Origin: Paenibacillus sp. BIC5C1
Lineage (GTDB): Bacteria; Bacillota; Bacilli; Paenibacillales; Paenibacillaceae
Assembly (NCBI RefSeq): GCF_032399705.1
Contig: NZ_CP135922.1
Location: 1,674,001-1,738,000, forward strand
Reading direction: 5' to 3'
DNA length: 64,000 nt
Shown here: in pieces, positions 12,046 to 25,554 of the stretch
Position numbering within the stretch: the first letter of the stretch is position 1
Layout of the letters: every line of letters begins with the position of its first letter
Notes under the pieces: generated by a model
Told to the model about the DNA's origin: nothing
Database searches by the model: none
What the model saw: only the letters and a program-made list of their open reading frames with translations
Program-made: the position numbers and the translations under genes

Positions 12046-12165
12046 GTTGCAGCGGCATTGGGGAGCTGCATGGCCGATGGCTGCATGCAGTGATGGAAGC
12101 ACCATGGCTTTGCCGTTCTGGTGCTACAACGTTGAGCACCGCGGTTATGGACGCGGTGCAATCCC

Positions 12166-12198: not shown

Positions 12199-12273
12199 CC
12201 TGACGCGGCTTTCCACTGCACAAGCCGCGCTCCGCTTCACCTTTTATCAGAGCATATATGATCCGAAAGCATC

Positions 12274-12320
12274 GGAAGGTCGTCTGATTCCCTAGTGGAT
12301 GAAGAAGGGCCTTCCTTTTT
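12274..12320 (+). terminator. terminator-like hairpin just upstream of the recombinase
   Basis: GGAAGG (12274-12279) and CCTTCC (12310-12315) enclose about 30 bases and are followed by a T-run. A closely similar sequence occurs at 47262-47310. It may shield or attenuate expression of the recombinase that starts at 12362. Confidence 0.55.
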
Positions 12321-12361
12321 GTTTTTCAGGTATAACAACTTCAAGCAAAGGAGAGCTTCAG

Positions 12362-13480
12362 ATGACTAATAAGGCTACAACCAAGGAAACGATAACTATA
12401 ACAGTAGGTTCCACTGATTCACTGCACATTCGCATCCCATACAACCTCGGATATATTCAGTGTATTCGCCAGATTACGGGCAGACGTTGGGAGCCCCAAC
12501 TGAAAGTGTGGATCATCCCTTACACTATTGATGCAGTACAGGAGTTCATAAGCCAGTTCGATCCAAATGATGTTCATATTACCCCAGAGTTATGGATTGA
12601 GAGCGAAGATCTACAGTGCTGGAAAGCGAGTAGAGGAAACAATAACTCATGGAGCAAAGAATCATTGCAAAAGGCACTAAAGTTACGAGGATACAGCCGC
12701 AAAACGATTAAAGCGTATTGTAATCAGGTCGAACGTTTTCTGAGTAGCCGTGCCTTTAAAGATACCGATGTGACTACTTCCAATGTTCAGACGTATTGTT
12801 TAGGTTTGCTTGAGCGAGGGATCTCCCATTCAAGCGTGAATCAGACGATTAGCGCGCTCCGCTTTTATTGCAAACATGTACTCCATCACCCTACCGAAAT
12901 CCAGTATATTCGCCCCAAGAAGCAGACCAAGCTGCCGCAAGTTTTGTCTGAAAGAGAAGTTGCCCAATTACTCACATCCGTAACTAATCTCAAGCATAAA
13001 ACGATTCTGTTTCTCACGTATTCGTCTGGTCTTCGTGTAGGTGAAGTCGTTCGTCTTCGATGCAGCGATTTGGATATTGAGCGTCAGACCCTTATTGTAA
13101 GGCAGGGAAAAGGACAGAAGGATAGAAGAACGCTACTCTCCAATATTGCTTGGGAAATTGTACAGGAATACATAAAGGAGTATAGACCCCAACGTTGGTT
13201 GTTTCCGGGACAATCTTCGGATCGGCATCTGACAGAGCGTAGCGTGCAAAAGGTTTTTGAAGAAGCCAGACAACGCGCAGGTATTGACAAAAAGGTTAGT
13301 ATTCATGTCTTACGACACTCTTTCGCTACACATTTGCTGGAAAACGGAACAGACCTGCGCTATATCCAGGAGCTGCTTGGTCACACGAGTGCACAAACAA
13401 CCCAGCGATATACGCATGTGAGTACGAAGAATATTCAGCTTTTTCAGAGCCCATTGGATCGTTTGGATTTGGGAGATTAA
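12362..13480 (+). CDS. tyrosine recombinase of the integron-like array (IntI/Xer-like, no I2 insertion)
   Basis: The protein (372 aa) has all tyrosine recombinase catalytic residues: R225 (SSGLRVGEV), K250 (GKGQKDR), H315 and R318 (HVLRHSFATHLL), H341 (LLGHTS) and the nucleophile Y350 (RYTHVS). It ends with SPLDRL, as many integron integrases do. A SAM-like core-binding domain (about 95-180) precedes it. The first ~75 residues form an extra module (RIPYN...RRWEPQLKVWIIP) reminiscent of HARP-like domains. The ~16-residue IntI-specific insertion between the catalytic patches is absent: PQRWLFPGQSSDRHLTERSV is compact as in XerC/D. ATG 12362 has AAAGGAG upstream. It is transcribed towards the cassette array, which starts 126 bp beyond its stop, and probably recombines the attC-like sites; that is inference. 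Confidence 0.85.
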   Translation: MTNKATTKETITITVGSTDSLHIRIPYNLGYIQCIRQITGRRWEPQLKVWIIPYTIDAVQEFISQFDPNDVHITPELWIESEDLQCWKASRGNNNSWSKESLQKALKLRGYSRKTIKAYCNQVERFLSSRAFKDTDVTTSNVQTYCLGLLERGISHSSVNQTISALRFYCKHVLHHPTEIQYIRPKKQTKLPQVLSEREVAQLLTSVTNLKHKTILFLTYSSGLRVGEVVRLRCSDLDIERQTLIVRQGKGQKDRRTLLSNIAWEIVQEYIKEYRPQRWLFPGQSSDRHLTERSVQKVFEEARQRAGIDKKVSIHVLRHSFATHLLENGTDLRYIQELLGHTSAQTTQRYTHVSTKNIQLFQSPLDRLDLGD

Positions 13481-13539
13481 GTGCTTCAATATATCTACCT
13501 TTTTCATCAAATTCTTCTTCGCAAATACTACACCATAGG

Positions 13540-13612
13540 TTATCATATACGTAGTTCTCATATCATGCAGGATGTGTGGTATTTACGAAGTACATAAATT
13601 AGATGTTAGGCG
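13540..13612 (+). other. candidate attI site at the array boundary
   Basis: The first R'-like box GTTAGGC (13606-13612) occurs here without the left half of an attC site, between the recombinase and the first cassette. That is the position expected of the primary recombination site. The exact extent is a guess. Confidence 0.45.
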
Positions 13613-13666
13613 AAATTACCGTATTATTTAAAAGACGAAAATACAATACAAAGGGGAATAAACAGC

Positions 13667-14347
13667 ATGTCAAATGAATTAGAAAAGTTTGATGAACTTA
13701 TTGATGGAATACCTGATGAACTCAAAACAAAAGCTGTTGGTTTTTTGGGAGAATTAGTTGGACAACCATTAAGGGAAGTAGGCAATATTGTATTTGATAA
13801 TATCCGTTATTTAAGAGTGAAAAATCAAGTGAATTTATTAATAAAAGCAAGAGAATATTTTACTTCCAATGGAATACAACCTAAAAAGATACCCATGCAG
13901 ATTTTAGTACCGTTATTAGAACAAGGATCTCTTGAAGAAGATGAAACACTTTCAAAGAAGTGGACAGCCTTGTTAATTAATGCTAGTAAGGATGAGGGAT
14001 ATACAGTAAGACCAAGCTATCTAGATATACTTAAACAATTAACCCCACTTGAGGCAAAAATATTAGATTATTTATATGATGCTTATATAGATTTTGATTT
14101 TCCTTTGAGACACGTTAAGAAGCGAACCTATAGAGAATTTAATATTACTGAGAAAGATTTATTAATTTGTGTAGATAATTTTCTGAGATTAAAACTTTGG
14201 AATTCAGAATTGCCAGACAAATTATATGAGATCATTTCAAAGATGGGAGAGGAACAGGAGAAACTAGGATTGATTTTATACGAGAAAACAACATACTCTT
14301 TCACTGTATTAGGGAAAGATTTTATTAAATCATGTAGAACAAAGTGA
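13667..14347 (+). CDS. cassette 1: Abi-alpha / DUF4393 protein
   Basis: The protein (226 aa) matches the DUF4393 (Abi-alpha) pattern. It has an N-terminal amphipathic region (LKTKAVGFLGELVGQPLREVGNIVFDNIRY), then PKKIPMQILVPLLEQGSLEEDETLSKKW and PSYLDILKQLTPLEAKILDYL. Members of this family include abortive-infection proteins, so a role in phage defence is plausible but not shown. The ribosome site is AAAGGGG ten bases upstream of the ATG. It occupies the first cassette, the position that in integrons is the most recently acquired and best expressed. Base composition is clearly more AT-rich than recQ and the radical SAM gene. Confidence 0.75.
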   Translation: MSNELEKFDELIDGIPDELKTKAVGFLGELVGQPLREVGNIVFDNIRYLRVKNQVNLLIKAREYFTSNGIQPKKIPMQILVPLLEQGSLEEDETLSKKWTALLINASKDEGYTVRPSYLDILKQLTPLEAKILDYLYDAYIDFDFPLRHVKKRTYREFNITEKDLLICVDNFLRLKLWNSELPDKLYEIISKMGEEQEKLGLILYEKTTYSFTVLGKDFIKSCRTK

Positions 14348-14384
14348 TTAGTATTAAAGCTGGTTCATTGATGACAGTAAGATC

Positions 14385-14532
14385 GCCTAACACCACATTC
14401 ACGCTTCGGGCATGCGCCCTCGGTCCAGACCGAGGTGGAAGAGATGTGGGTGAATCCAGCCGGACACATCCATTCCCCTAAGATAAGAGCTATCTAAGGG
14501 GAATGGACGTCGTGAATACAAGAACGTTATAC
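14385..14532 (+). repeat. attC-like site 1 (148 bp)
   Basis: R'' GCCTAAC at 14385, exactly complementary to the GTTAGGC that opens cassette 1; R' GTTATAC at 14526. ATTCACG/CGTGAAT arms pair inside. It carries an extra inner hairpin (14477-14499) identical to one in site 10. Confidence 0.8.
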
Positions 14533-14577
14533 GACAGAATCTCATAGAAAAAGCATTTTACAAAAGGGAGATCAAAA

Positions 14578-15186
14578 ATGAATTCTGGAAATTTTTCATG
14601 GACAGAAGTCTACTCGTCTTGGAAATATTTTGTTGAGAATTATAGCTATAAATCTATTAAAGATCCGCTCTTCAAACAAGTTCAAATACAATCACAATCG
14701 AATCCTAATCTTAACATTGGAACTGGAATAATAGATTGGTGGCCGACTAATGAAATTGAATATAGAACAAAAAAGTTAAATGACAGAGGTATCCTAGGTG
14801 CTGATTGGGATACGGTAGTAAGTTTTAACCGAACAGCTGAAATGTTATGGGAAAACAAAGAAAATAATGAAAAACAAGCTCTGATTTGGATTGCTGCTGG
14901 ATTGAATGAAATATTAACTCATCTCCCAGAAGAATGGAGAGGAAACTCGTATAGATTTATCTACGAAACTAAATTGAATATTATGAAAGAATTTAAAGAT
15001 AGAAATATGTGGTCATGGCACGCCTCGACCAAGAATTTCTTGCCTGTCAAAGTTAATAAATTCATGCAATTATATTCTGCCCCGTTGGAGATATATAACT
15101 TAATAAATATCATAGCTATCGATAGTGCTCTTTCGAGAAATGCTTGGACATTAGTGCATGTTTCTCGAGAAGATGACTCCGTATAA
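14578..15186 (+). CDS. cassette 2: hypothetical protein
   Basis: I do not recognise this 202-aa protein (MNSGNFSWTEVYSSWKYFVE...). It is soluble, rich in aromatic residues and has no signal peptide or membrane segment; the second half looks helical. The ribosome site AAAGGGAG precedes the ATG. The stop codon TAA lies inside the R'' box of the closing repeat (GTATAAC at 15181), so gene and recombination site are tightly packed, as in integron cassettes. No function is proposed. Confidence 0.75.
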   Translation: MNSGNFSWTEVYSSWKYFVENYSYKSIKDPLFKQVQIQSQSNPNLNIGTGIIDWWPTNEIEYRTKKLNDRGILGADWDTVVSFNRTAEMLWENKENNEKQALIWIAAGLNEILTHLPEEWRGNSYRFIYETKLNIMKEFKDRNMWSWHASTKNFLPVKVNKFMQLYSAPLEIYNLINIIAIDSALSRNAWTLVHVSREDDSV

Positions 15187-15277
15187 CATAATATTCTCGC
15201 TGAGGGCGTACTCCCTTGGTTGAACATTTAGTAGGACACTCAGCATGGGCTGAGTCGTAAATACAGGAACGTTATAT
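15181..15277 (+). repeat. attC-like site 2 (97 bp)
   Basis: R'' GTATAAC complements the opening GTTATAC of cassette 2; R' GTTATAT at 15271. Left arm ATAATATTCTCGC, right arm TAAATACAGGAAC. Confidence 0.75.
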
Positions 15278-15314
15278 GACAGCGCGATGATAGAAATTAA
15301 GGAGGGAACTTGTT

Positions 15315-15833
15315 ATGAATAAAGAATACAAAGAGCTAGTAGAAGCTAAGTATGGTAAGTCCCTAAAAGAAATAATGTATGAATTGTGTGTGGATAGAAG
15401 ATTAGATAAATGGGATGGAGCAAAAATATTAGACGTGCCTGAAAAAACATTTGTTGCTTGGAGAACCCAATTTCGTTTTGGTCCTGATCAATTAAGATAT
15501 GATCATGCTGTAAAGAAGAGGATTGAAAGCATTAGTGAATATAAAGAGCAATTGGAAAACATAAATCTACGAAGAAAATTTACACATAATAAAGATAAAT
15601 CCTTAAAAGGATTTCGAGAACTAGTTGAAAGGAAAATGGAACTGGAGAAGCTAAGAAGAACTTTATTAGAAGAAGAGGATTCGTTTAGTGATATGTCTGT
15701 TCTAATAAGAATTGGAATGCTTGAAGGTGTGCTAAACTATCTAGATGAGTATGAAAAGCACGAGAAGAATATAGAAGCTCATTTTCTTAAAGAAGTAGAG
15801 ATGATGGAGTTATTCTTAAACAGAGAAGTCTAA
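15315..15833 (+). CDS. cassette 3: HTH-like hypothetical protein
   Basis: The protein (172 aa) begins with about 60 residues that resemble a helix-turn-helix of phage terminase-small-subunit or transposase type (DKWDGAKILDVPEKTFVAWRTQFRFGP). A long, highly charged helical region, likely coiled coil, follows. The ribosome site is AAGGAGG, upstream of ATG 15315. The last ~30 codons and the closing repeat are present again at 54046-54161, so this cassette once had a second copy. Function unknown. Confidence 0.7.
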   Translation: MNKEYKELVEAKYGKSLKEIMYELCVDRRLDKWDGAKILDVPEKTFVAWRTQFRFGPDQLRYDHAVKKRIESISEYKEQLENINLRRKFTHNKDKSLKGFRELVERKMELEKLRRTLLEEEDSFSDMSVLIRIGMLEGVLNYLDEYEKHEKNIEAHFLKEVEMMELFLNREV

Positions 15834-15856
15834 AACAATTAACTCAAGGAACCGAC

Positions 15857-15963
15857 ATACAACAGTACATTCACACTTCGGATAAGTCGCGTTCCGGCAG
15901 ATGGATTTCTAGGAAGTTGGTGTAGCTGTACACCCCCGCATTGCGAATACAGGAACGTTATAC
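15857..15963 (+). repeat. attC-like site 3 (107 bp)
   Basis: R'' ATACAAC (two mismatches over ten bases to the cassette's GTTATATGAC opening); R' GTTATAC at 15957. Left arm CATTCACACTTCGG, right arm GCGAATACAGGAAC. Confidence 0.7.
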
Positions 15964-16004
15964 GACAGAATCAAAAAGAATAGAAAAGAGGATCATATGA
16001 TCCT

Positions 16005-16292
16005 CTAAATGCTAGAGTTTTTCAATTCACCAAAAAGTTGTAGAGCGTCTTTGAAACCTTGTATGTAGATACTTCTTTCTAAGATGGATTGAAGAGAAAT
16101 TTGAGCGTCTTCGTAAAGGAAAACTGTATTTTGAAGTTGATCAGGCAAAGCATCGCGAAGTGTTTTAAAGTATTGATCTGTCTCAGTAGAAAGTTGATTA
16201 TATTCCGTATGGCATTTCACAAGTTCAGTATAGAGTAATTCTAGACGTATTCTTATCAGCGGTTCTGTTAGCAATTCTAATGTATTAATCAT
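16005..16292 (-). CDS. cassette 4a: small helical protein, divergent from HTH gene
   Basis: This 95-aa protein reads on the minus strand, opposite to almost all other cassette genes. It is predicted fully helical (LTEPLIRIRLELLYTELVKCHTEYNQL...) and contains no catalytic motif I recognise. The start at 16292 has AAGGGAGGA upstream. It is divergent from a small XRE-type regulator in the same cassette, and three operator-like palindromes lie between them. The pair may be a toxin/antitoxin-like or self-regulated module; this is inference from layout only. Confidence 0.65.
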   Translation of the reverse strand: MINTLELLTEPLIRIRLELLYTELVKCHTEYNQLSTETDQYFKTLRDALPDQLQNTVFLYEDAQISLQSILERSIYIQGFKDALQLFGELKNSSI

Positions 16293-16312
16293 ATAATATT
16301 CCTCCCTTAATT

Positions 16313-16380
16313 AACTCTATAGAGTTATTATATAACCTTATAAAGTTAATTACAAGGTGAATATTTGACTTTGTAGAGTT
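16313..16380. promoter_or_regulatory. three operator palindromes between divergent genes
   Basis: AACTCTATAGAGTT (16313-16326) is a perfect palindrome. AACCTTATAAAGTT (16334-16347) and GACTTTGTAGAGTT (16367-16380) are variants. Centres are 21 and 33 bp apart, about two and three helical turns. They probably bind the XRE-type protein encoded at 16446. Confidence 0.7.
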
Positions 16381-16445
16381 AAAATTTCGCTTTTCGTTGA
16401 TGATTACTAATGAGGGAGATAAGATAGAACTATGGAGGGGAAAAG

Positions 16446-16670
16446 ATGAACGTAATCAAGTGCAATATACGAGAACTCATGGCAGAACATCGAATAGATG
16501 ATATAACAGAATTGATGGCAAAATCGGGCTTAAGTCGGAATTCGATCAATAAGCTCTATAGGGAAACTAATATAGAAACAACAAAGCTGGAAACCTTATT
16601 CAAGCTATGCGATACATTTAATTGTAAATTATCTGAATTGATTGAATACGTACCTGAAGAAGAAAAATAG
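16446..16670 (+). CDS. cassette 4b: small XRE-type (YozG-like) regulator
   Basis: The 74-aa protein is little more than a helix-turn-helix of the Cro/C1 YozG type: IRELMAEHRIDDITELMAKSGLSRNSINKLYRE followed by TTKLETLFKLCDTFNCKLSELIEYVPEEE. The ribosome site TGGAGGGG lies seven bases upstream. It faces away from 16005-16292 across three palindromes and probably represses both genes. The cassette is closed by site 4, whose R'' matches the cassette opening over ten bases, so the two-gene module moves as one unit. Confidence 0.8.
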   Translation: MNVIKCNIRELMAEHRIDDITELMAKSGLSRNSINKLYRETNIETTKLETLFKLCDTFNCKLSELIEYVPEEEK

Positions 16671-16699
16671 TGAAGTTATATTCGAGAAGTGATTCCGTC

Positions 16700-16821
16700 G
16701 TATAACATAATATTAACGCTGCGGCTCCTTTGGAGCCTTGGTCTGCTGGATGAATTTTGTGGAAGCGTTTCAGCAGACACATCCGACTACGTCGAACATC
16801 GTGAATACAGAAACGTTATGT
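16700..16821 (+). repeat. attC-like site 4 (122 bp)
   Basis: GTCGTATAAC at its left end is the perfect 10-nt complement of the GTTATACGAC that opens cassette 4; R' GTTATGT at 16815. Arms ATAATATTAACGC and CGTGAATACAGAAAC. Confidence 0.85.
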
Positions 16822-16857
16822 GCAATTGCATAAAAATATATTTTAAGGAGCAGAAAA

Positions 16858-17652
16858 ATGAACAATAATTCAGTATATCCAACTCAAAGACAAATTCATA
16901 GGCCTTTGCTACTTGAGCTTCATGCGAGAGGAGGAATGGAAAAACCTAAAAATTTATACGATACCTTAGCTACTTATTTTAATTTGACAGAAGAAATGAA
17001 AAGGTTAAAGCAAAATGATGGTAGAAACAAATGGAAAAATGATGTTCAATATGCCAGGCTCCAATTAGTTCAAAAAGGACTAATTAAAAAACCATCAAAA
17101 GAAGAAAAAGGGACATGGCAGCTAACCGAGTTAGCTTATACTAAAATACTTGACCTCAATAATGAGAGCGTTATAGAAAATGAATTGACCGTAGATAAAA
17201 TGACACAGAAAGCATTAGAGGAGATACTCAAAATACAAAAGGCTATTGGTGATTTTGGAGAAGAAATTGTTAAAAATTATGAAATAGAAAAATTGAATAC
17301 ATTAGGAATGAGTGATTTGTGTGAAAAAGTGAAGATTATTTCCGGATCAGATTGTAGAGCTGGTTTTGACATAATGTCTTTTGATGAACAAGGGAATGAA
17401 AAATATATTGAAGTAAAAAGTAGTACTACAGATGAGTCGGATTTTTATATATCTTTAAACGAGATTAATAAATCAAAAGAATTAAAAAATGGTTATTGTT
17501 TATATCTTGTAAGAGGAATTGATTTATCTAAAAAAACATACAAAAAAATAATTGAACTAAATGATGTTAGTAATCTTTTGGATTCAAATCTTATTGAATT
17601 ATTGCCTATTAAATGGAGAGGTTCTCTAAGTCACTTACATAAAAGTAAGTAG
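16858..17652 (+). CDS. cassette 5: winged-helix + DUF3883 (PD-(D/E)XK) restriction-like nuclease
   Basis: The protein (264 aa) starts with an Mrr-N-type winged-helix region (RQIHRPLLLELHARGG ... YARLQLVQKGLIKKPS, about residues 8-95) as in solitary restriction endonucleases. It ends with a DUF3883-like nuclease core: IGDFGEEIVKNYE, then AGFDIMSFDEQGNEKYIEVKSS, where the D and the E-V-K are the PD-(D/E)XK catalytic residues. No methyltransferase partner exists nearby, so a modification-dependent or stand-alone restriction role is possible. The ribosome site is AAGGAG, and the cassette ends pair over nine bases. Confidence 0.75.
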   Translation: MNNNSVYPTQRQIHRPLLLELHARGGMEKPKNLYDTLATYFNLTEEMKRLKQNDGRNKWKNDVQYARLQLVQKGLIKKPSKEEKGTWQLTELAYTKILDLNNESVIENELTVDKMTQKALEEILKIQKAIGDFGEEIVKNYEIEKLNTLGMSDLCEKVKIISGSDCRAGFDIMSFDEQGNEKYIEVKSSTTDESDFYISLNEINKSKELKNGYCLYLVRGIDLSKKTYKKIIELNDVSNLLDSNLIELLPIKWRGSLSHLHKSK

Positions 17653-17662
17653 AAGCAACAGC

Positions 17663-17758
17663 ACATAACATAATATTCACGCTGCGGGCATGCGGCCTTG
17701 TTCTGGCATACGCCAGACACCCGACATGCGTCGGGTCGTGAATACAGGAACGTTAAGT
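17663..17758 (+). repeat. attC-like site 5 (96 bp)
   Basis: GCACATAAC perfectly complements GTTATGTGC at the start of cassette 5; R' GTTAAGT at 17752. Arms ATAATATTCACGC and CGTGAATACAGGAAC; one of the cleanest copies. Confidence 0.85.
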
Positions 17759-17790
17759 GAAATTCCAGTGAGAGCTATAGGCTTGTGAAG

Positions 17791-17799
17791 TGGTATAAT
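17791..17799 (+). promoter_or_regulatory. extended -10 promoter inside cassette 6
   Basis: TGGTATAAT is an extended -10 element 27 bp before the first gene of the cassette, so this cassette carries its own promoter. Confidence 0.55.
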
Positions 17800-17828
17800 A
17801 TAACCATTAAAATAGAGGAGGGACAATG

Positions 17829-18071
17829 ATGAAATGGCAAGAAGTTCAACAGATTTTTCCAAATCAATTCGTGAAATTTGAAGTTCTTCATTCTGAAGAA
17901 ACAGACAATCAAGAGATCATTGATGATGTGGCCGTGATTGGCCCGATCAGTGATGAAGAAGCGACTCGCGAACTATTGAACAGTAGGGACAAGACTCTGG
18001 TTTACCATACTTCCAAAGATCGAATCGTTGTGAAGGTACGGAAAAATATAGGATTAAGGAGAAATCTTTAA
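17829..18071 (+). CDS. cassette 6a: small MKWQEV protein, partner of retropepsin-like gene
   Basis: The 80-aa protein (MKWQEVQQIFPNQFVKFEVLHSE...) has a predicted alpha/beta fold with DDVAVIGPISDEEATRELLNSRDKTLVYH, but no known catalytic motif. ATG 17829 follows AGAGGAGGGA; ATG 17826 is an equally possible neighbour. Its stop codon directly abuts the start of the aspartic-protease-like gene (0 nt), implying coupled translation and a shared role. A broken copy of this gene is found at 51602-51769 near another attC-like half site. Function unknown. Confidence 0.75.
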   Translation: MKWQEVQQIFPNQFVKFEVLHSEETDNQEIIDDVAVIGPISDEEATRELLNSRDKTLVYHTSKDRIVVKVRKNIGLRRNL

Positions 18072-18449
18072 ATGAATATTGAATATAGAGATGGGCTGTT
18101 ATTCACGGAAATAACAGTCCATTTCAATGAGCAGAAGAAAGTAATATCAAACATCGTGATCGATACAGGAGCCAGTCATAGCTTGATTTCACAAGATGAA
18201 GTGGATGAGATTGGGATACTAGTGAGTATGGAAGATGAAATTATAACTAGCTACGGAATCGGAGGTAAAGAGCATGCCTTCAGTAAGCGAATCGACGGTA
18301 TACAGGTAGGGGATTTCATTTTAAAGGATGTATACATAGACTTTACTTCATTTAAATATCACAACATTAACGGACTTTTGGGACTGGATGTACTGATGGA
18401 AGGGAAATTTAATATTGATCTAAAGAAATTTAAATTACTTCGTTCATAA
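18072..18449 (+). CDS. cassette 6b: retropepsin-like aspartic protease domain protein
   Basis: The 125-aa protein has one retropepsin fold half: hydrophobic-IVIDTGASHSLIS with the catalytic DTG at about residues 36-38, then flap-like GIGGKEHAF and the second conserved NGLLGLDVL motif. Such single-domain proteins act as dimers. Start and preceding stop are adjacent (0 nt). As an intracellular protease paired with a small protein it might process or degrade that partner, but nothing here proves it. Cassette ends match over nine bases. Confidence 0.8.
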   Translation: MNIEYRDGLLFTEITVHFNEQKKVISNIVIDTGASHSLISQDEVDEIGILVSMEDEIITSYGIGGKEHAFSKRIDGIQVGDFILKDVYIDFTSFKYHNINGLLGLDVLMEGKFNIDLKKFKLLRS

Positions 18450-18502
18450 GAGATAAAAGACGCAAGAGGATTGAGTGGTGATTCGAGGAAGACTGAAACA
18501 TC

Positions 18503-18618
18503 ACTTAACATAATATTAAAGCTGCGGCTCCTTTGGAGCCTTGGTCTGCACGATGGATTTCGAGGAGGGATTTCAACAGACAACCCCTTTGGGGTTCATG
18601 AATACAGGAACGTTATCT
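18503..18618 (+). repeat. attC-like site 6 (116 bp)
   Basis: TCACTTAAC perfectly complements GTTAAGTGA at the start of cassette 6; R' GTTATCT at 18612. Middle GGCTCCTTTGGAGCC hairpin is shared with sites 4 and 8. Confidence 0.85.
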
Positions 18619-18749
18619 GAAATAATGCCCCAAAACAATTGAAGGAGCCACATTCGTAACGTCCTGTTGCTTATTGATATATATTAATGGCGATGATTAT
18701 TTAACAAAGGTCAGGTGAGCAGATTCTCTATTTACCAGGGAGGAGCCGA

Positions 18750-19673
18750 TTGAGGAATATGGGAAGTTCGAATCAATGGGATGCAGAATGGGAAGTATCA
18801 GAAGAATTAGCGCATAAATTAATAAGCACTCAGTTCCCACAATTAGCTTCAAAAAGCGTACGAAAACTAGGACATGGTTGGGATAACACGGTTTATCTTG
18901 TCGGGATCGAATATGTATTTCGATTTCCAAGAAGAGAAGTTGCGATTAATTCTTTAAGGATGGAAGGAAAGATGTTGCCTAAGCTTAAAGAATATTGTTC
19001 CATTGCCTATTCGATCCCGTTATTTTTTGGGGTAGGGGATTATGGTTATCCAGCACCCTTCTTAGGCTACTCCTATTTATCCGGAGAATTTCCAATCGGA
19101 TTAACTGACAAGCAACGTGCACTTTCAGCAAATACGCTTGCGGTATTTCTAAAAAGCTTACATGCATTCCCAGTGCAAATTGCCCAAGAAAATGGAGTTA
19201 AACTTGATCATAGAAATCTGACTGATCTTGCGATGCGCAAAGAAAAGATGCATAAATTCCTTTCGGATATTGCACTACATTTAAGTGATGAAGAGTATCG
19301 TGCTTTATCGAATTATATCGAACAGCTTAGAACTAAAAAAGTGAAGCAAAAGTATACATTCCTTCATGGCGACCTTCATTTCAAAAATATGTTGGTAAAT
19401 GAGAGTGGAATAATTTCAGGAATTATCGACTGGGGAGATATCAACATAGGTCATCCTGCTTGTGACCTGAATGTTGTGTATAGCTTTTTACCACCGGATG
19501 CGCGTTCAAACTTTTTCAAAGTATATGGGGAAGTTGATGAAGAAACGAAGATCTTAGCTCGATTGATTGCCATATATATCCCCATTTTAATCATGCTACA
19601 GGCAATTGATCATAATGACATGAGTTTAATTGATGAAGCAAAGGCGAACATAAAACGTGCTCTCGCTGATTAA
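18750..19673 (+). CDS. cassette 7: aminoglycoside phosphotransferase family kinase
   Basis: The protein (307 aa) is an APH-type kinase: glycine loop region LGHGWDNTVYLV, the ATP lysine replaced by FRFPRRE as in macrolide/aminoglycoside kinases, the catalytic HGDLHFKNML and the metal-binding IIDWGD. Enzymes of this family phosphorylate aminoglycosides, macrolides or small metabolites in the cytoplasm. Which substrate applies cannot be told. A TTG start at 18750 lies near GGGAGGAG; ATG 18759 is the alternative. Its presence in a cassette array recalls the resistance genes of mobile integrons. Confidence 0.8.
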   Translation: MRNMGSSNQWDAEWEVSEELAHKLISTQFPQLASKSVRKLGHGWDNTVYLVGIEYVFRFPRREVAINSLRMEGKMLPKLKEYCSIAYSIPLFFGVGDYGYPAPFLGYSYLSGEFPIGLTDKQRALSANTLAVFLKSLHAFPVQIAQENGVKLDHRNLTDLAMRKEKMHKFLSDIALHLSDEEYRALSNYIEQLRTKKVKQKYTFLHGDLHFKNMLVNESGIISGIIDWGDINIGHPACDLNVVYSFLPPDARSNFFKVYGEVDEETKILARLIAIYIPILIMLQAIDHNDMSLIDEAKANIKRALAD

Positions 19674-19786
19674 GATTTGTCATTCCGTAAAAAGAAAACG
19701 ATTGTTGATTCGATTAATAAATATCTCTGAAAATATAACGAGGGTCGACGTCTTGTCTGTAATTCGAAGAAGTGGGGCATTCCATT

Positions 19787-19932
19787 AGATAACTTCGCAT
19801 TCACGCATCGGGCCTAACGGCCCTTGGTCCCGGAAGTAGGGACGGGCGAGGAAGCGATTGCCGGGTCACATCTGAGAGCCTAAGTGCAACTGCACTTAGG
19901 CTCTCGACATTGTGAATGCAAGAACATTATAA
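19787..19932 (+). repeat. attC-like site 7 (146 bp)
   Basis: R'' AGATAAC complements the GTTATCT that opens cassette 7; R' is degenerate (ATTATAA at 19926). An inner hairpin (GAGAGCCTAAGTGC/GCACTTAGGCTCTC) extends the structure. Confidence 0.7.
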
Positions 19933-19960
19933 GAAATCGGGATAATTGCTTAAATTCAGG

Positions 19961-19969
19961 TGCTATAAT
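19961..19969 (+). promoter_or_regulatory. extended -10 promoter inside cassette 8
   Basis: TGCTATAAT lies about 40 bp upstream of the proposed start of the phosphatase-like gene. Confidence 0.5.
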
Positions 19970-20005
19970 AAAACAAAATAATAGATATGAGATAGGTGAC
20001 GAAGC

Positions 20006-20335
20006 ATTAAATTACTATTTATTTGTAGTCGAAACAAATGGCGCAGCTTAACAGCAGAGAAGATTATTAATGGATACAATGGATATCAAGTGCGATCTGC
20101 TGGAACAGAAGAGGGAGCTAGAATTAGAGTCACTGAAGGACACATTGGATGGGCAGAAATGATTTTTGTAATGGAGAAAAAACATGTAAGAAGACTTAAA
20201 GATAAATTCTCAAATAAACTAATAAACAAACGTTTGGTATGCTTAAATATACCGGATGATTATGAATATATGGATGAAGAATTAATAGAGATATTGAAAT
20301 CTAGAGTATCGGAATACGTTGAAGTACCAGAATAA
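20006..20335 (+). CDS. cassette 8: small low-molecular-weight tyrosine phosphatase-like protein, apparent ATT start
   Basis: In the frame running to the TAA at 20335, the 109-aa protein reads (I/M)KLLFICSRNKWRSLTAEKI, with the P-loop C-x5-R-S of low-molecular-weight protein tyrosine phosphatases. It goes on with VRSAGTEEGARIRVT, WAEMIFVMEKKH and LNIPDDYEYMDEELIEIL, the usual pattern of the short phosphatase-like family. No ATG, GTG or TTG exists in frame before the P-loop. The only fitting start is ATT 20006, six bases after AGGTGA. A start at 20090 would remove the active site. Either ATT is used or the start codon has mutated. Confidence 0.75.
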   Translation: MKLLFICSRNKWRSLTAEKIINGYNGYQVRSAGTEEGARIRVTEGHIGWAEMIFVMEKKHVRRLKDKFSNKLINKRLVCLNIPDDYEYMDEELIEILKSRVSEYVEVPE

Positions 20336-20408
20336 TAGTTAAGAACAAAAGCAACTGAGTACGAAAAAAGAGCATTTTGTAAGTAGCTGAAGGGGGACCC
20401 CGACATCT

Positions 20409-20523
20409 TATAAACTAATATTCAGGCAGCGGCTCCGATGGAGCTTTGGTCTTCGAGAAGGGATTCGGAGAGGCATCTCAGCAGACAACCCGTTTGGGGT
20501 TCATGAATACAGGAACGTTATCC
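20409..20523 (+). repeat. attC-like site 8 (115 bp)
   Basis: R'' TATAAAC is degenerate, as is the opening of cassette 8; R' GTTATCC at 20517 with TGAATACAGGAAC before it. Confidence 0.65.
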
Positions 20524-20565
20524 GAAAGACTCGCAAATACTATTAATTAAGATAGAGGTGTATGT

Positions 20566-21093
20566 ATGTTTTTTTTACAGATGTCAGGATTCCCTGGTTC
20601 AGGAAAGTCGACATTAGCAAGACAGATTAGCCAAACAACTGGGGCTGTCATTGTTGATCATGACATTTCTAAAACAGCAATCTTAAAATCGCTATCATCA
20701 CAAGGATACACGATGGAAGGTAAAGCAATAGGACAACTGTCCTATGATAGATTGGTCGTTGGTGGATTATTATTTATCGAATGGACATAGCGTGATCATG
20801 GATAGTCCTTGTTTGTACAGCAATTTATTAGAAACTGGGCTTGAATTAGCGAGAAAACACAAAAAGAAATATAAGTATGTGGAATGTTATGTCGAAGACA
20901 TTGAATTAATTCGAAATCGATTAAAAATCAAGAAAGACTTTTGAGTCAAATCGAAGCATCATCATCAGAAGAAGGCTTTTATAGAGCTTTAATAAACAGT
21001 AAAAAACCAGAAGAAGAGAATTATATAGTGGTAGATTCATCGAAACCAATCGCAGAATACTTGTCAAAAGTCCAAGAATACATAAACGAATGA
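20566..21093 (+). pseudogene. cassette 9: P-loop kinase/AAA ATPase, two frameshifts
   Basis: The first frame has Walker A GFPGSGKSTLARQI and VDHDISKTAI and ends early at 20790. The sense continues in another frame from about 20745 (IDWSLVDYYLSNGHSVIMDSPC) to 20944. It then continues in a third frame from an A-run near 20928 (NQERLLSQIEASSSEEGFYRAL) to TGA 21093. Joined, these give about 175 residues of a small P-loop kinase of the zeta-toxin/shikimate-kinase-like class. Two single-base shifts therefore inactivated it. Confidence 0.75.
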
Positions 21094-21141
21094 AAACAAA
21101 AGTAAAGACGATGAAAGCAGAATCAAGAAGGCAAGTCCATT

Positions 21142-21148
21142 GGATAAC
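21142..21148 (+). repeat. left half of attC-like site 9
   Basis: GGATAAC followed by ATAGTATCTACG complements GTTATCC of cassette 9. The right half is missing; an IS110-like fragment and a minus-strand gene follow. Confidence 0.5.
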
Positions 21149-21158
21149 ATAGTATCTA

Positions 21159-21264
21159 CGTCGCCCTCGGAAATGTCTGGGCTGGAAAACTGCCCACGGA
21201 ATCTTTCACAGAGAAACAATTGGTGGCGTATGCAGGATCTGTAAGTATCAAAAACCCGACATAA
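21159..21264 (+). pseudogene. possible IS110-family transposase remnant
   Basis: Translation in one frame gives NVWAGKLPTESFTEKQLVAYAGS and then a stop at 21264. The part ESFTEKQLVAYAG resembles the C-terminal region of IS110 transposases (compare QFSDAKQLVAFAGLDPG in the intact copy at 37813). Only about 30 residues remain, so this is tentative. Confidence 0.35.
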
Positions 21265-21284
21265 ATTGCGGGTTTTTGATACTT
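21243..21284. terminator. bidirectional terminator
   Basis: A perfect 16-bp stem, AAGTATCAAAAACCCG (21243-21258) with CGGGTTTTTGATACTT (21269-21284), lies just downstream of the minus-strand CAP gene. Confidence 0.75.
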
Positions 21285-21306
21285 TATTGTTGGGAGATGA
21301 AAGGCG

Positions 21307-22014
21307 CTACCCAGTAAATTCCTGGACCCATGTGTTGTTATAATAAGCAATACCGATATGAGTATAACTATTATTCAGTATATTGGCTTTGTGGCCAGGG
21401 CTATTCATCCACTCCTTCATAACCTGGGTAGGGGTGGTTTGCCCTTTTGCGATGTTTTCTCCAGCGGTATTATATGTGATCCCGAATTCCTTCATCATAT
21501 CGAAGGGGGATCCATGTGTTGGCGAATTATGATCAAAGTAACTGTTGTTGTACATGTCCTGTGCCTTGACCATAGCCACATTTGACAATTCTTCATTCCT
21601 ACTCAAGGAACTTAATCCTGTTTTGGCCCTTTCTTGATTGACTAGATCCAGAACCTGCTGCTCAAAATCGGTTTTATCCGTAGTATTTTTTTTACCTTCC
21701 TGTACTTGTCCTGTTGGCTCCTTATTTTCAGGATTTCCTGCAGGTGCCTGGTTTACTGGACTTCCATCCGGTGTTCGAACCAGATCCAACAAATCCAATG
21801 GAATTCCATTTTGGGCTTCTTTTGTTGTAATAGATCTCTCTTGCCAAGATGTAGCTGTTGATGATGCCTGTGTGAGGACAGAGTTTGGTGCAGCAGCATG
21901 ATCATGAATTGAAATTTGTTTTTGCTCAGGAGTCACTTGTTTTTGCATCATATTGTTATGGGACGAACAGCCTGCCACCAATAATAATATTATCAAAACG
22001 AAAAACTTTGCCAT
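21307..22014 (-). CDS. CAP/SCP-domain lipoprotein (YkwD-like)
   Basis: The protein (235 aa) has a lipoprotein signal (FFVLIILLLVAGCSS, lipobox LVAGC). A Pro/Asn/Gln-rich spacer follows to about residue 115. The C-terminal CAP domain has VNQERAKTGLSSLSRNEELSNVA, FDHNSPTHGSPFDMM, AGENIAKG and WMNSPGHKANILN. These extracytoplasmic proteins are common in spore formers; their role is unclear. The start has AGGAGGT upstream. It is one of only two genes in the array on the minus strand and has an ordinary terminator, so it may have been inserted between cassettes by another route. Confidence 0.85.
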   Translation of the reverse strand: MAKFFVLIILLLVAGCSSHNNMMQKQVTPEQKQISIHDHAAAPNSVLTQASSTATSWQERSITTKEAQNGIPLDLLDLVRTPDGSPVNQAPAGNPENKEPTGQVQEGKKNTTDKTDFEQQVLDLVNQERAKTGLSSLSRNEELSNVAMVKAQDMYNNSYFDHNSPTHGSPFDMMKEFGITYNTAGENIAKGQTTPTQVMKEWMNSPGHKANILNNSYTHIGIAYYNNTWVQEFTG

Positions 22015-22401
22015 TTGCCGACCTCCTAGATCCGTTAGTTAATGAAGTTCCCGGATTTATGTTTTCCTGTATGCCATTTACTTATTCCTAATATGGTTCT
22101 CTCCTTATCCAGTACTTTTTTATGATCGATACCATTTAGATAGCCTTGTCTTTTTTTTGTGTCTCGAGGAAAGCATGTTGCGAATGGTTATGGATAAAGA
22201 AGGCCATATCGGGTCATAAATGCATCACGGGATGAATGTTATCCTTTTCAATGGGATTCCTGATGATTGGAGTATTTCGATGGATAATTGGGAGAATCTA
22301 TTCAAACTAATAGACAATTTTATGGAATATAAACCATATGCTGCATCATATAAAACAAACTGAAAGCAAATATTTGATAATTCGATGAAGTCAGAAACTG
22401 C
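22015..22401. other. AT-rich stretch, possible cassette-gene debris
   Basis: Between the CAP gene and site 10 there is no convincing full gene. A 47-codon frame at 22220-22363 (MHHGMNVILFNGIPDDW...) lacks a ribosome site and may be the end of a lost cassette gene. Confidence 0.4.
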
Positions 22402-22547
22402 GTTTAACACAGTATTCAAGCTGTAGGGCTATCGTCCCTCGATTGAAAGATGTATAATCATGGAAGAAATCTCAGTCAACAAACGCCCCAGCCTAAGATA
22501 AGAGCTATCTAAGGCCGGGGCGTTTCGTGAATACAAGAAAGTTATGA
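22402..22547 (+). repeat. attC-like site 10 (146 bp)
   Basis: Left box GTTTAAC, then ACAGTATTCAAGCTG; right arm CGTGAATACAAGAAA and R' GTTATGA at 22541. Contains the inner hairpin at 22492-22514 shared with site 1. Confidence 0.7.
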
Positions 22548-22660
22548 GAAATCATCGTAAATAAATTACAAGATAGGAACTGTATAATGCTACGCATTAT
22601 ATACAGTTATGGCTAAGTGCTTGAAATATTCGTTTTAACTAATCTTATGAGGTGGTTATT

Positions 22661-23170
22661 ATGCAAATAAGAAAAGCAACGATTAATGATGCAGAAGGCA
22701 TTGCAAAAGTTCATGTGGATAGTTGGAGAACAACTTACAAAGGTATTATTCCAGATGAATTCTTATATAATCTATCATATAAAAAAAGAACTGAATTATG
22801 GATCGAAAATATTGAAAGAGAAGATAATTTTGTAGTTATAGCAGAAAACCCAGAAGGAGAAATTATTGGATTTGCAGATTCTTGGAAGAGAGAAACAAAT
22901 ATAGTAGCCAATTCTAGTGATTTAACATCTATATACATACTTAAGGAATATCACGGAAGAGGTTTAGGGAAAGAATTACTTAAACAACTATTTCTACATT
23001 TTAAATTCTTAGGCTATCAAAAGATATTTGTTGAAGTTCTAGAAGATAATAAGACACGATATTTCTATGAACATTATGGAGCTAAATTATGTAAATCAAT
23101 TCAAATAATAATCGGAGGAAAAGTTCTAAATGAATTAATTTATGAATGGGATAACATTGATGAGGTTTGA
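22661..23170 (+). CDS. cassette 11: GNAT family N-acetyltransferase
   Basis: The protein (169 aa) opens with IRKATINDAEGIAKVHVDSWRTTYKGIIP, the usual start of GNAT enzymes. It has the acetyl-CoA binding motif A in LTSIYILKEYHGRGLGKELLKQL, and FVEVLEDNKTRYFYEHYGAKL as motif B. It transfers an acetyl group to an unknown amine; several relatives are antibiotic or peptide acetyltransferases. ATG 22661 follows GAGGTGG by five bases. The closing repeat is reduced to its right half, so the cassette end is partly deleted. Confidence 0.85.
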   Translation: MQIRKATINDAEGIAKVHVDSWRTTYKGIIPDEFLYNLSYKKRTELWIENIEREDNFVVIAENPEGEIIGFADSWKRETNIVANSSDLTSIYILKEYHGRGLGKELLKQLFLHFKFLGYQKIFVEVLEDNKTRYFYEHYGAKLCKSIQIIIGGKVLNELIYEWDNIDEV

Positions 23171-23204
23171 GCCTCTCAGATTCGTGAATACAGCAACGTT
23201 ATCT
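23171..23204 (+). repeat. right half of attC-like site 11
   Basis: TTCGTGAATACAGCAAC followed by R' GTTATCT (23198). A GGATAAC inside the end of the GNAT gene (23149) may act as a left box, but it does not complement the cassette opening. Confidence 0.6.
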
Positions 23205-23252
23205 AAAATCAGGACAAATATGTAATATCAAAATCTAGGAGTGGGATTCGAC

Positions 23253-23636
23253 TTGGAGAACTCAAATTTAAAAGATCTTATTGAAAAATACCTGAGCGCA
23301 TATAACACGTTTAACATTGATGGAATGGTAGGAGTTTTGAATGAAAATATTCATTTTCGAAACATTTCTAAAGGTGAAGTGAATTTGGAAACAAAGGGGA
23401 TTCAGGAATTTCGCACATTAGCAGAGCAGTCAATTCAGGTATTTTCTCAAAGGCGTCAAGTAATAAAGAACATTATTTTCGCAGGAGATAAAGCAGAGGT
23501 TGACATTGATTATGAGGGAATATTGTCCAGTGATCTCCCTAATGGAATGAAGGCAGGAGAAACATTAAAACTTCAAGGGAAATCAATATTTCAAATGAAA
23601 GATAAGAAGTTAATACTGATTGAAGATCATAGTTGA
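23253..23636 (+). CDS. cassette 12: SnoaL/NTF2-like protein
   Basis: The protein (127 aa) has the cone-shaped NTF2-like pattern: an N-terminal helix pair (LKDLIEKYLSAYNTFNIDGMVGVLNENIHFRNI), followed by strands with RRQVIKNIIFAGDKAEVDIDYEG and GETLKLQGKSIFQMKDKKLILIEDHS. This is typical of SnoaL-like proteins of unknown substrate. The start is TTG 23253 at good distance from AGGAGTGG; GTG 23241 is the alternative but overlaps the ribosome site. Confidence 0.75.
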   Translation: MENSNLKDLIEKYLSAYNTFNIDGMVGVLNENIHFRNISKGEVNLETKGIQEFRTLAEQSIQVFSQRRQVIKNIIFAGDKAEVDIDYEGILSSDLPNGMKAGETLKLQGKSIFQMKDKKLILIEDHS

Positions 23637-23674
23637 AACAGTATTGAAAGTTATTCATAGATTACCCTGAAATC

Positions 23675-23797
23675 AGATAACAATATATTCACGCATCGAG
23701 CATACGCCATCGGTTCGGCAGAAGCATTACAGGGAAGCAGAGGCTTGCCGGACACACTTGGCATTTGCCAAGCGTCATGAATACAACAACGTTAGTC
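23675..23797 (+). repeat. attC-like site 12 (123 bp)
   Basis: R'' AGATAAC complements the GTTATCT of cassette 12; R' GTTAGTC at 23791. Arms ATATATTCACGC and CATGAATACAACAAC. Confidence 0.8.
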
Positions 23798-23828
23798 GAA
23801 AGAAGTTTTTAGTTTAGGAGGAGTCTAT

Positions 23829-24596
23829 ATGATATTAGAAAAAGTTATAAATAGAATTGCAATACAAAGTGAATATAAGGATTTTGTTGATAAGTATGTG
23901 AATCATATCCTTAACGAATTTAAAGATAAGATTCATAGCATTTATATGTGTGGCTCAGTTCCAAAAGGAACGGCTACACCTTTTAAGTCAGATGCAGACT
24001 TTACTATTGTATGTGCAAATCCCAAAGATATTGATTACGAAAGATTGTCAAATATTAAAGACAGGCTTTTGGAAGAATATCAAGTCCTAACTAAGATCGA
24101 TACGATTATTTGCTCGATTGACGATGTATTAAGTAAACCACATGAGTGGGGTTTTTGGGTTAAGATCATTTGTGTTTGCATACATGGGGATGACATTGGT
24201 GAAAAAGTACCCCCGATCATGATTTCTCCAGAATTCATTTTAGACTTAAATACAGAGACCAAGGAGGAAGTGGATCGTGTACATCGTTCACTTTCTAATG
24301 CTAGTGATAACACAATGAAAACTAGATATATTAAAGGTTACTCTAAGAGATTAATTCGTGCATTATACTCTTTGGTTCTAGAAGATACAGGGGTATGGCA
24401 AGATGACATTATTAAGATGAAGAATGCCATATTAAACTATTGTGAGATTGACTCCGCTTTAGTTGATTATCTGTATGCTTGTTACTTGGATAGTGATGTA
24501 CTTGTTGAAGAGTTTCTGGGAATTGCAGATGAAGTATATAGCTATTTTGAGAACGCCTTAAATGCAATGGCTGCTTCCAAAACTTCCTTCGACTAA
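23829..24596 (+). CDS. cassette 13: nucleotidyltransferase-fold protein
   Basis: The protein (255 aa) contains the polymerase-beta-like nucleotidyltransferase signature, with GSVPKGTATPFKSDADFTIV at about residues 41-60 (the GS and the D-x-D metal ligands). A third carboxylate is near KIDTIIC, and a helical C-terminal domain follows. Aminoglycoside adenylyltransferases share this plan, but substrate residues cannot be judged. The ribosome site is AGGAGG. The stop TAA lies inside the R'' box GACTAAC, and cassette ends match over ten bases (GTTAGTCGAA with TTCGACTAAC). Confidence 0.8.
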   Translation: MILEKVINRIAIQSEYKDFVDKYVNHILNEFKDKIHSIYMCGSVPKGTATPFKSDADFTIVCANPKDIDYERLSNIKDRLLEEYQVLTKIDTIICSIDDVLSKPHEWGFWVKIICVCIHGDDIGEKVPPIMISPEFILDLNTETKEEVDRVHRSLSNASDNTMKTRYIKGYSKRLIRALYSLVLEDTGVWQDDIIKMKNAILNYCEIDSALVDYLYACYLDSDVLVEEFLGIADEVYSYFENALNAMAASKTSFD

Positions 24597-24744
24597 CATT
24601 GCTCGGGGTCACTCTGAGAAGCGAGTGAGCCCATCCAGCCCGCTAAACCCGTCGGGACGTTACTGCATTAGGTGTTCGGCAAGCCTCACAACTATAAGCA
24701 GCGACTCTAAGGGGCCAGGACGTCGTCAATACAAAACGTTTATC
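24591..24744 (+). repeat. attC-like site 13 (154 bp)
   Basis: R'' GACTAAC perfectly fits its cassette; R' is GTTTATC (24738) with one extra T. The middle differs from the other sites, suggesting a different source. Confidence 0.7.
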
Positions 24745-24777
24745 TGACATAAACCTATTACATTTTAGGAGCAAATA

Positions 24778-25497
24778 ATGAATATCACTTTCTCGAAATG
24801 GGTGCAATATTATCGGAGAAATAATCAAAACCTCAAATATATTCATTGGGATGACAACTATAAATTAACAACTAATGAAAGAGAAATAATCATTAAGTCA
24901 ATTCAACAGTTTCAATTAGGAGAAAACTCTGAAGGTAAATATCTAATTAAACGTGCGCAAGAATATGTACATCAGACACAAGATCAGGATTACTATGAAG
25001 CACTTATAGAATTCATTAAAGAAGAACAGAGGCACGCTAGAGATCTGGGCAGATTTATGAAGGTACAGGGAATCCCGCTCCTTCGTAGACATTGGGTGGA
25101 CAATGTATTTAGAAGATTACGTCGATATGCGAGTCTAGAACAATCAGTCATTGTTCTATTAACTGCTGAGATCATTGCTAAGTTGTACTATAAAGCCTTG
25201 CAAAAATCTACAAAATCAAAAATATTAATCGATTTATGTAATCAGATTTTAAATGATGAGGAGAAACATGTTCAGTTTCAATCCGAAACACTTTATAAAT
25301 TTGCTCAAAATAGAAACGTTCTCTTTAACAGAATAGTTTATATCCTTCGTAGAATCCTTTTTGAAGGAACGCTAATTATAGTGTGGTATCAACATAAGCC
25401 TGTATTTAAAGCTGGGGGATATAAATTCAAAAGTTATTACTATGAGTGTCGTCATGAGTTTAACTTAACAAAGAAGATTATAGCTAATGCACAGTAG
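24778..25497 (+). CDS. cassette 14: ferritin-like di-iron protein
   Basis: The protein (239 aa) has the two half-motifs of a ferritin-like four-helix bundle: EFIKEEQRHARDLGRFM and LNDEEKHVQFQSE (each E-x-x-H), with a further Glu in LTAEIIAKLYY. Such proteins bind two iron atoms and include small oxygenases or peroxide-detoxifying enzymes; the substrate is unknown. The C-terminus has a hydrophobic stretch (GTLIIVWYQHKPVF). The ribosome site TTAGGAG precedes ATG 24778. The cassette is followed by only the left half of an attC-like site. Confidence 0.75.
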   Translation: MNITFSKWVQYYRRNNQNLKYIHWDDNYKLTTNEREIIIKSIQQFQLGENSEGKYLIKRAQEYVHQTQDQDYYEALIEFIKEEQRHARDLGRFMKVQGIPLLRRHWVDNVFRRLRRYASLEQSVIVLLTAEIIAKLYYKALQKSTKSKILIDLCNQILNDEEKHVQFQSETLYKFAQNRNVLFNRIVYILRRILFEGTLIIVWYQHKPVFKAGGYKFKSYYYECRHEFNLTKKIIANAQ

Positions 25498-25508
25498 AGG
25501 TTTACGTC

Positions 25509-25515
25509 AGATAAC
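25509..25515 (+). repeat. left half of attC-like site 14; end of array 1
   Basis: GTCAGATAAC (25506-25515) matches the opening of cassette 14 over ten bases if the inserted T is ignored. No right half follows, so the array ends or is truncated here. Confidence 0.6.
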
Positions 25516-25554
25516 ATTATATCCAAGATTTCAAAAAGAGAGGTAAATGTAAAA

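Follow-up and report, generated by a model that had tools for sequence, protein, structure and literature searches.

A tyrosine recombinase gene and, downstream of it, an array of genes separated by attC-like inverted repeats lie within a 64,000-nt stretch of DNA from Paenibacillus sp. BIC5C1, referred to here as the window (positions 1674001-1738000 of a single-contig, 7.08 Mb genome). The locus comprises, in order, two upstream genes that we take to be a recQ homologue and a radical-SAM-like gene, the recombinase, ~125 nt of conserved DNA, and 13 cassettes reaching position 25512. This arrangement is very probably an integron-type gene-capture platform, made up of a recombinase without the IntI-specific domain, an attI-like site and the 13 cassettes, with circular cassettes likely inserted at attI. 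The original prediction, made from the letters of the window, had proposed an integron-like array with a non-canonical recombinase, and it has held: the IntI domain is absent, an attI-like site is present, and the start of each cassette tends to be complementary to the far end of that cassette.

Recombinase, attI-like site and cassette array

The features of the locus are given below. Cassette numbering skips 10, so that cassette 14 is the thirteenth counted.

12362-13480, plus strand: tyrosine recombinase gene, 372 aa, ATG at 12362 and stop at 13480, frame intact
13481-13608, plus strand: attI-like site, crossover predicted after G13605 (G^TTA), sequence shared by 18 relatives as far as G^TT and divergent past it
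13518-13546, plus strand: candidate cassette promoter (predicted), TTCGCA-N17-TATCAT, within the attI region
13606-14526, plus strand: cassette 1, Abi_alpha gene 13667-14347, attC-like site 14388-14529
14527-15271, plus strand: cassette 2, unknown gene 14578-15186, attC-like site 15184-15274
15272-15957, plus strand: cassette 3, unknown gene 15315-15833, attC-like site 15860-15960
15958-16815, plus strand: cassette 4, DUF6809 gene 16005-16292 (minus strand) and Cro/C1-type helix-turn-helix gene 16446-16670, attC-like site 16703-16818
16816-17752, plus strand: cassette 5, Mrr_N/NOV_C gene 16858-17652, attC-like site 17666-17755 of the consensus 86-nt class
17753-18612, plus strand: cassette 6, 81-aa frame and aspartyl-protease-like gene 18072-18449, attC-like site 18506-18615
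18613-19926, plus strand: cassette 7, APH-family phosphotransferase gene 18750-19673, attC-like site 19790-19929
19927-20517, plus strand: cassette 8, 81-aa frame 20090-20335, attC-like site 20411-20520
20518-21161, plus strand: cassette 9, AAA_33-like gene 20566-20944 split over two frames, only the 5' half site left (21145-21161)
22405-22544, plus strand: orphan attC-like site past the CAP-domain gene, lacking a matching cassette start
22542-23198, plus strand: cassette 11, GNAT acetyltransferase gene 22652-23170, short attC-like site 23152-23201 (5' arm poor)
23199-23791, plus strand: cassette 12, SnoaL-like gene 23241-23636, attC-like site 23678-23794
23792-24738, plus strand: cassette 13, nucleotidyltransferase gene 23829-24596, divergent attC-like site 24594-24741
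24739-25528, plus strand: cassette 14, ferritin-like gene 24778-25497, 5' half site 25512-25528 as the array end

The 372-aa recombinase matches the Pfam Phage_integrase family at 7.4e-42. Residues R225, K250, H315 and R318 are invariant among 38 recombinase rows, and H341 and Y350 are kept in at least 90% of them; these six are presumably the catalytic residues. The catalytic domain resembles those of XerA, XerC and XerD, and the best curated NCBIfam family is NF040815 (recomb_XerA_Arch), whose cut-off of 220 bits the protein exceeds marginally, at 221 bits. Against TIGR02249, the IntI family, the protein scores 203.6 bits, under the curated cut-off of 265. The usual definition of an integron, as worded in a passage of PMC9668308, includes an integrase with an IntI-specific additional domain around patch III. 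No such domain was found in the window recombinase, which shows a gap of ~40 residues when aligned with three IntI rows; the spacing between two aligned stretches is 60 residues in IntI4 versus 18 here. When the family profile was compared with solved structures, IntI4 was closest (1.1e-55) and an archaeal Xer nearly equal (3.5e-55). In the tree, ten IntI rows form a separate group with support of 100/99, the family of the window recombinase forms another well-supported group outside it, and XerD is set apart. Because the recombinase lacks the IntI-specific domain, scores under the TIGR02249 cut-off and falls outside the 100/99 group, it is, as judged from its sequence, XerA/IntI-like and not IntI. 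Canonical IntI over the cut-off was not found in the window genome, and it was found in a single one of 199 Bacillota genomes (G717, locus L094).

The N-terminal domain, of which 89 aa were modelled, has a predicted HARP/DRD-like appearance. The gathering cut-off of 25 for HARP (PF07443) is reached neither by the window recombinase (14.5) nor by a related recombinase of Clostridia, P0094 (20.7). The HARP/DRD fold is found in proteins that bind forked or damaged DNA.

Upstream of the recombinase, a leader at 12258-12340 carries a palindrome (TCCGA..TCGGA), an overlapping GC stem and then a T run; it is similar in the window and 11 loci, copies at another locus included. It is possibly an attenuator, though the terminator scan did not list it. 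The two genes further upstream precede the recombinase in 14/19 related loci, while no match to them was found in the flank examined at the other 5/19; the platform at this first locus is therefore sedentary.

Downstream of the recombinase, the DNA of the window and 18 relatives aligns well up to ...AAATTAGATG^TTA and not past it (L014, one of the 19 loci, was excluded, since its recombinase lies at a contig end). Over the ten bases leading up to the G, anchored identity is 0.97; it is 0.78 over the following ten, and in blocks from +10 past the attI G it falls to 0.44, 0.36 and 0.33. A promoter-like motif with a constant 17-nt spacing occurs in the attI region of 19/19 loci.

The original prediction placed attC-like repeats behind a tyrosine recombinase, and both were found at those positions. 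When up to 3 mismatches are allowed, the 3' arm GTGAATACAGGAACGTTA matches the window 14 times, always on the plus strand and 11 times inside the array, whereas 100 dinucleotide shuffles of the window gave a mean of 0.06 and a maximum of 1. Three more attC-like 3' arms lie 3' of the array at 44955-44972, 51515-51532 and 55508-55525, the last of these as part of a near-complete site; all three may be left over from an older array. Against Rfam, positions 9400-26500 gave two matches, both below gathering scores, and none for the attC-like sites.

The 13 cassettes start at 13605, 14526, 15271, 15957, 16815, 17752, 18612, 19926, 20517, 22541, 23198, 23791 and 24738. The original prediction had put the number of short genes at about fourteen and described them as unrelated to each other and almost all co-oriented. 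The longest frames of 120 array intervals of up to 2 kb, taken from the window and 18 relatives, comprise 111 that are co-oriented and 9 that are opposed. The window cassette genes have no common family, and among 117 cassette proteins scanned no Pfam family has more than 4 matches (first 25 of 56 families listed, which include GNAT, aspartyl protease, APH-family kinase, AbiH, Abi_alpha and putAbiC). PADLOC matched 76 models on the cassette proteins; among the first 25, PDC-M08B occurs in 4 proteins, whereas NucC, AbiH and AbiJ are each matched by a single protein. At 21145-22405, a CAP-domain gene on the minus strand (21307-22014) interrupts the array between the half site and the orphan site.

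Pairing of cassette ends and folding of the sites

The window and its 18 relatives yielded 131 3' arms; the further locus L014, whose recombinase is at a contig end, has no site. For 116 of these a 5' arm could be paired, and the resulting sites carry R''/L''/L'/R' inverted repeats with AAC...GTT cores. Measured from the R'' core, the crossover lies 68 to 190 nt away, with clusters near 86, 106, 112 and 136-160 nt. Among the 116 sites, the spacers are asymmetric, with 4 nt (88% A+T) on the R''-L'' side and 7 nt (52% G+C) on the L'-R' side, and C precedes G^TT in 108. Classical attC sites, according to a passage of PMC2727003, carry one or more extrahelical bases, above all the G of L''. No extrahelical L-stem base was found here: an ungapped 8-bp L stem with at most 1 mismatch is present in 102/116 sites.

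In integrons, the R'' arm and the opening bases of its own cassette are complementary, because the site is complete only in the circle. When the cassette ends of the window were permuted, 0/100000 permutations reached the complementarity observed with own ends across the 13 cassettes. The same holds for the 110 cassettes, out of those at the 116 sites, that have a start within 2.5 kb. At positions 5-9, 495/550 cells match between start and R'', versus a permuted mean of 314 and 321 with the neighbouring start; the three variable positions alone match in 293/330 versus 125. Near-copies are few, and 102/110 starts are unique. Such own-end complementarity would be expected if cassettes pass through circles. 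Some ends in the window are untidy, with a poor own-end match in cassette 11 and a match shifted by one base in the last cassette.

Past this match comes a two-base stretch whose second base is nearly always mismatched, position 11 being A against G in 92/110 cassettes. Beyond it the complementarity resumes in an outer box of seven positions, where 570/770 cells match versus 259 permuted and 262 with the neighbour; at least 5/7 positions are matched in 80/110 cassettes. The outer stem is, on these alignments, a predicted new element of the site. It is unable to form in the array, because its two arms there belong to different cassettes. Folding was modelled for 80 of the 110 cassettes, namely those with a construct of up to 150 nt and no N. 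The predicted bottom-strand energy averages -26.5 kcal/mol for the circle junction versus -19.8 for the array form, and the circle form is more stable in 74/80; the bottom strand folds better than the top strand in 57/80. Sites of the 86-nt class (40 sites) have a three-hairpin head in which 94.7% of cells pair, with 75 double changes versus 27.9 in shuffles and further pair types not raised. For this three-hairpin cloverleaf, RNAalifold alone missed the L and R stems; the structure was named afterwards and its pairs counted, so that it derives in part from the same sequences.

Variation between genomes and distribution

Cassettes were considered shared at 80% identity or more over 80% of the shorter interval. 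Eight cassette families (22/130 intervals) recur across genomes, several of them aligned from the first base after the G to the last, and a ninth is a pair inside one array. For instance, window cassette 6 is common to three other genomes, as cassette 5 in L019, cassette 2 in L009 and cassette 1 in L007; window cassettes 2-4 occur in the same order in L005, and window cassette 12 is common to two other genomes.

The window was also compared over 81 kb with G058, the one genome listed for the same species, using matches of at least 90 nt. Identity is 94-99% in the flanks, and cassettes 11-14 are retained at 97-99.6%, with distal identity beginning at window position 21161, inside the half site of cassette 9. 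Between attI and 21161, only cassette 6 was found beyond its attC end; in G058 it lies directly at attI and is 88.7% identical. Such a difference next to attI has the polarity that would be expected of capture there, in this one genome pair. Two findings would have spoken against the original prediction: cassette content and order that never vary among related strains, or repeats spread widely without relation to gene boundaries or recombinase. Neither was seen: content differs attI-proximally between the two same-species genomes from a site boundary onward, shared cassettes occupy other array positions in other genomes, and the sites occur in association with attI or the recombinase and with the boundaries of genes. 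As a separate observation, window positions 12299-13480, compared with L007 of G058, contain recombinase DNA that is 82% identical between flanks at 94-99%; the recombinase gene itself may have been exchanged between these genomes. The exact 18-nt 3' arm had no match among IMG/VR viral contigs, and among plasmid records none reached 60% identity to the recombinase.

A covariance model, R1, was built from 40 sites. In the window genome, 18/19 matches at E <= 1 fall either within the window or in a second array, located near 2.62 Mb, and the remaining one is weak (E 0.52). The search of Paenibacillus that the original prediction had suggested, run with R1 at E <= 1e-3, matched 74/75 genomes of the genus, several with one to five hits. 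At 1e-4, R1 matched 157/295 genomes of the family Paenibacillaceae, covering 15/19 genera. In a 299-genome sample of the class, 23 match, 20 of them from the same family and three from outside it with one or two weak hits each. The recombinase was found at 1e-50 in 52/75 genomes of the genus, some copies having stops or being fragmented. Recombinases only 46-51% identical to that of the window also precede same-strand sites, with 6 sites in L068, 18 in L067 and 23 in L065-L066.

The second array of the window genome (G000:C1:2619685-2629889; L057 7685-17889) includes both an attI-like site of its own and attC-like sites; no recombinase was detected by tblastn within the 20 kb examined. Several other genomes have hits at comparable coordinates, which suggests that this second locus is conserved. 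In G058 and G041, decayed recombinase pieces (L063 17432-18179 and L060 4716-5043) are followed by attI-like sites, and a further attI-like site lies at L059 18227, which would amount to several platforms in one genome.

Elsewhere in the phylum, a recombinase like P0094 occurs in 31/398 Bacillota genomes at 1e-60, three of which are Paenibacillus. Array-like repeats were found in 5/12 downstream stretches from other Bacillota classes (L117, L118, L119, L121 and L124), with other arms and the same core, e.g. TAACATGGGATT or CGGGAACGTTATATGAAAT. A start-R'' match of at least 11/13, the outer box included, was reached at 4/8 sites in L121, 2/5 in L117 and 2/6 in L119, compared with 0, 0 and 0.8% of the respective controls; the same script gave 5/7 sites in the window and 8/14 in L067. 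The seven remaining stretches were left uncounted: repeated 10-mers are above shuffles in L116 and L120, reach about twice the shuffled number in L115 and are lacking in L122, L123, L125 and L126 (2.7-4.8 kb). None of eight genomes of this kind from other classes has IntI over the cut-off. A phylum-wide lineage appears likely, although it is less well shown than the Paenibacillaceae case.

Outside the phylum, a Chryseobacterium (Bacteroidota) plasmid carries a related recombinase and then three copies of a 209-nt repeat ending GGCCGTTA (L092 5962-11771). It was not counted as a cassette array; by eye, its cassette starts do not match the R'' arm.

Proposed integron-type capture and its alternatives

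Sedentary chromosomal integrons are the closest known counterpart. They share with this system the tyrosine recombinase beside attI, co-oriented cassettes, G^TT/AAC cores, R/L inverted repeats, asymmetric spacers that are A-rich on one side and GC-richer on the other, start-R'' complementarity, and variation at the attI end. In contrast, the Paenibacillus recombinase has no IntI-specific domain and has a HARP/DRD-like N-terminal domain, while its sites lack the extrahelical L-stem base, possess a second paired box outside R and, in the 86-nt class, a three-hairpin head. The second array near 2.62 Mb resembles a cluster of attC sites lacking integron-integrases (CALIN), whereas the window array has its own recombinase. 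XerCD-dif (pdif) modules differ in their sites: dif sites are short, and those of Paenibacillus span 68-190 nt with variable middles.

Firmicutes reportedly have almost no integrons: according to an excerpt of PMC9024848, IntegronFinder 2.0 identified one complete integron and a few CALIN in that phylum. Because the program recognises integrases via the IntI-specific domain, as stated in part of PMC9668308, it could see arrays such as these at best as CALIN. In passages of PMC8138268 that deal with an integron-like subgroup of simple tyrosine recombinases, cassette arrays are not described for members lacking the insertion, and the word Paenibacillus is absent from its main text. No title or abstract on integrons of Paenibacillus was found among the records listed from the open PMC literature, preprints excluded, which is weak evidence; where the genus is mentioned in passages of PMC4909258, PMC3382206 and PMC7691350, it is for protein homologues or for one isolate without intI1.

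The architecture, the G^TT boundaries, the start-R'' complementarity, the conservation of attI, the attI-proximal difference and the cassettes that recur end to end are all observed, and they are consistent with the window recombinase as the acting enzyme, the folded bottom strand as its substrate, and cassettes as circles. Such a system would function like an integron and would lie outside the IntI-based definition by its enzyme and by one feature of its sites. In the likely reaction, the recombinase would act on a single folded strand of the attC hairpin to place circular cassettes at attI, and cassettes would be captured one at a time at this fixed neighbouring site. Since it is formed only by a cassette's own two ends, the outer stem would give a site in a free circle a more stable fold than the same site in the array, which would favour capture over excision. 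The HARP/DRD-like domain may read the outer stem or its fixed mismatch, replacing the missing IntI domain, and the promoter-like motif in attI may drive the first cassettes.

A broader and more tentative proposal, to which we give somewhat less than an even chance, is that Bacillota possess integrons of a kind of their own, extending beyond the taxonomic class to which Paenibacillus belongs, in which the recombinase never had the IntI domain and the HARP/DRD-like domain reads a longer attC hairpin with a circle-only outer stem, biasing the system toward capture. If so, cassette capture arose twice, or before IntI gained its domain. The promoter scan as a whole showed no excess (2 promoter-like sites versus 3.0 in shuffles), and a further test on L119 and L124 was weak. 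As for the two origins offered in the original prediction, an undescribed lineage is the best fit; independent evolution agrees with the separate groups in the tree, yet a topology test did not reject IntI and the Paenibacillus recombinase family as one clade (p 0.066).

Several other explanations have to be weighed against integron-type capture. It is unlikely, although the least so of these, that the complementary ends record how cassettes are made, e.g. from a hairpin-ended precursor, and not recombination. The outer box pairs within the cassette only (see the counts against the neighbour above), and to our knowledge no such box is present in classical attC sites, both of which fit that idea; the mismatch at position 11, conserved in kind, suggests continuing selection instead. 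The array may also be a relic, built by such a system and now frozen with an inactive recombinase. One broken site, a non-cassette gene inside the array, recombinase copies with stops in several relatives, and distal cassettes conserved between two same-species genomes are what a relic would leave, but the intact frame of the window recombinase, with the conserved residues of its family, and the attI-proximal differences between those same genomes make this improbable. That the system is an ordinary integron whose canonical IntI was merely scored low by automatic models is more doubtful still. Although IntI4 is the closest structure, TIGR02249 does match, and classical attC sites have a similar spacer asymmetry and a similar base ahead of G^TT, this explanation is largely refuted because ~40 residues of the IntI-specific region are missing; the separate IntI group, the L stem without an extrahelical base and the presence of the outer stem also stand against it. 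Scarcely credible, finally, are terminators or repetitive extragenic palindrome (REP)-like elements between ordinary horizontally acquired genes, with the recombinase a bystander. The sites are indeed strong inverted repeats between genes, but the complementarity of cassette ends refutes this in practice, as the R'' arm varies in step with the distal end of its own cassette; moreover, the sites are confined to arrays, conservation at attI ends at G^TT, and sites follow recombinases that are only ~50% identical.

The reading that we prefer is a gene-collecting system of integron type in Gram-positive bacteria that would be missed by searches built on the IntI domain. If recombination is confirmed, cassettes could be captured without the IntI domain, the integron strategy would extend more widely within a major phylum of Gram-positive bacteria, and a natural site architecture possibly favouring capture over loss would be open to study. 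Because the cassette genes include the candidate phage-defence families listed above, the arrays also represent a searchable store of such gene families.

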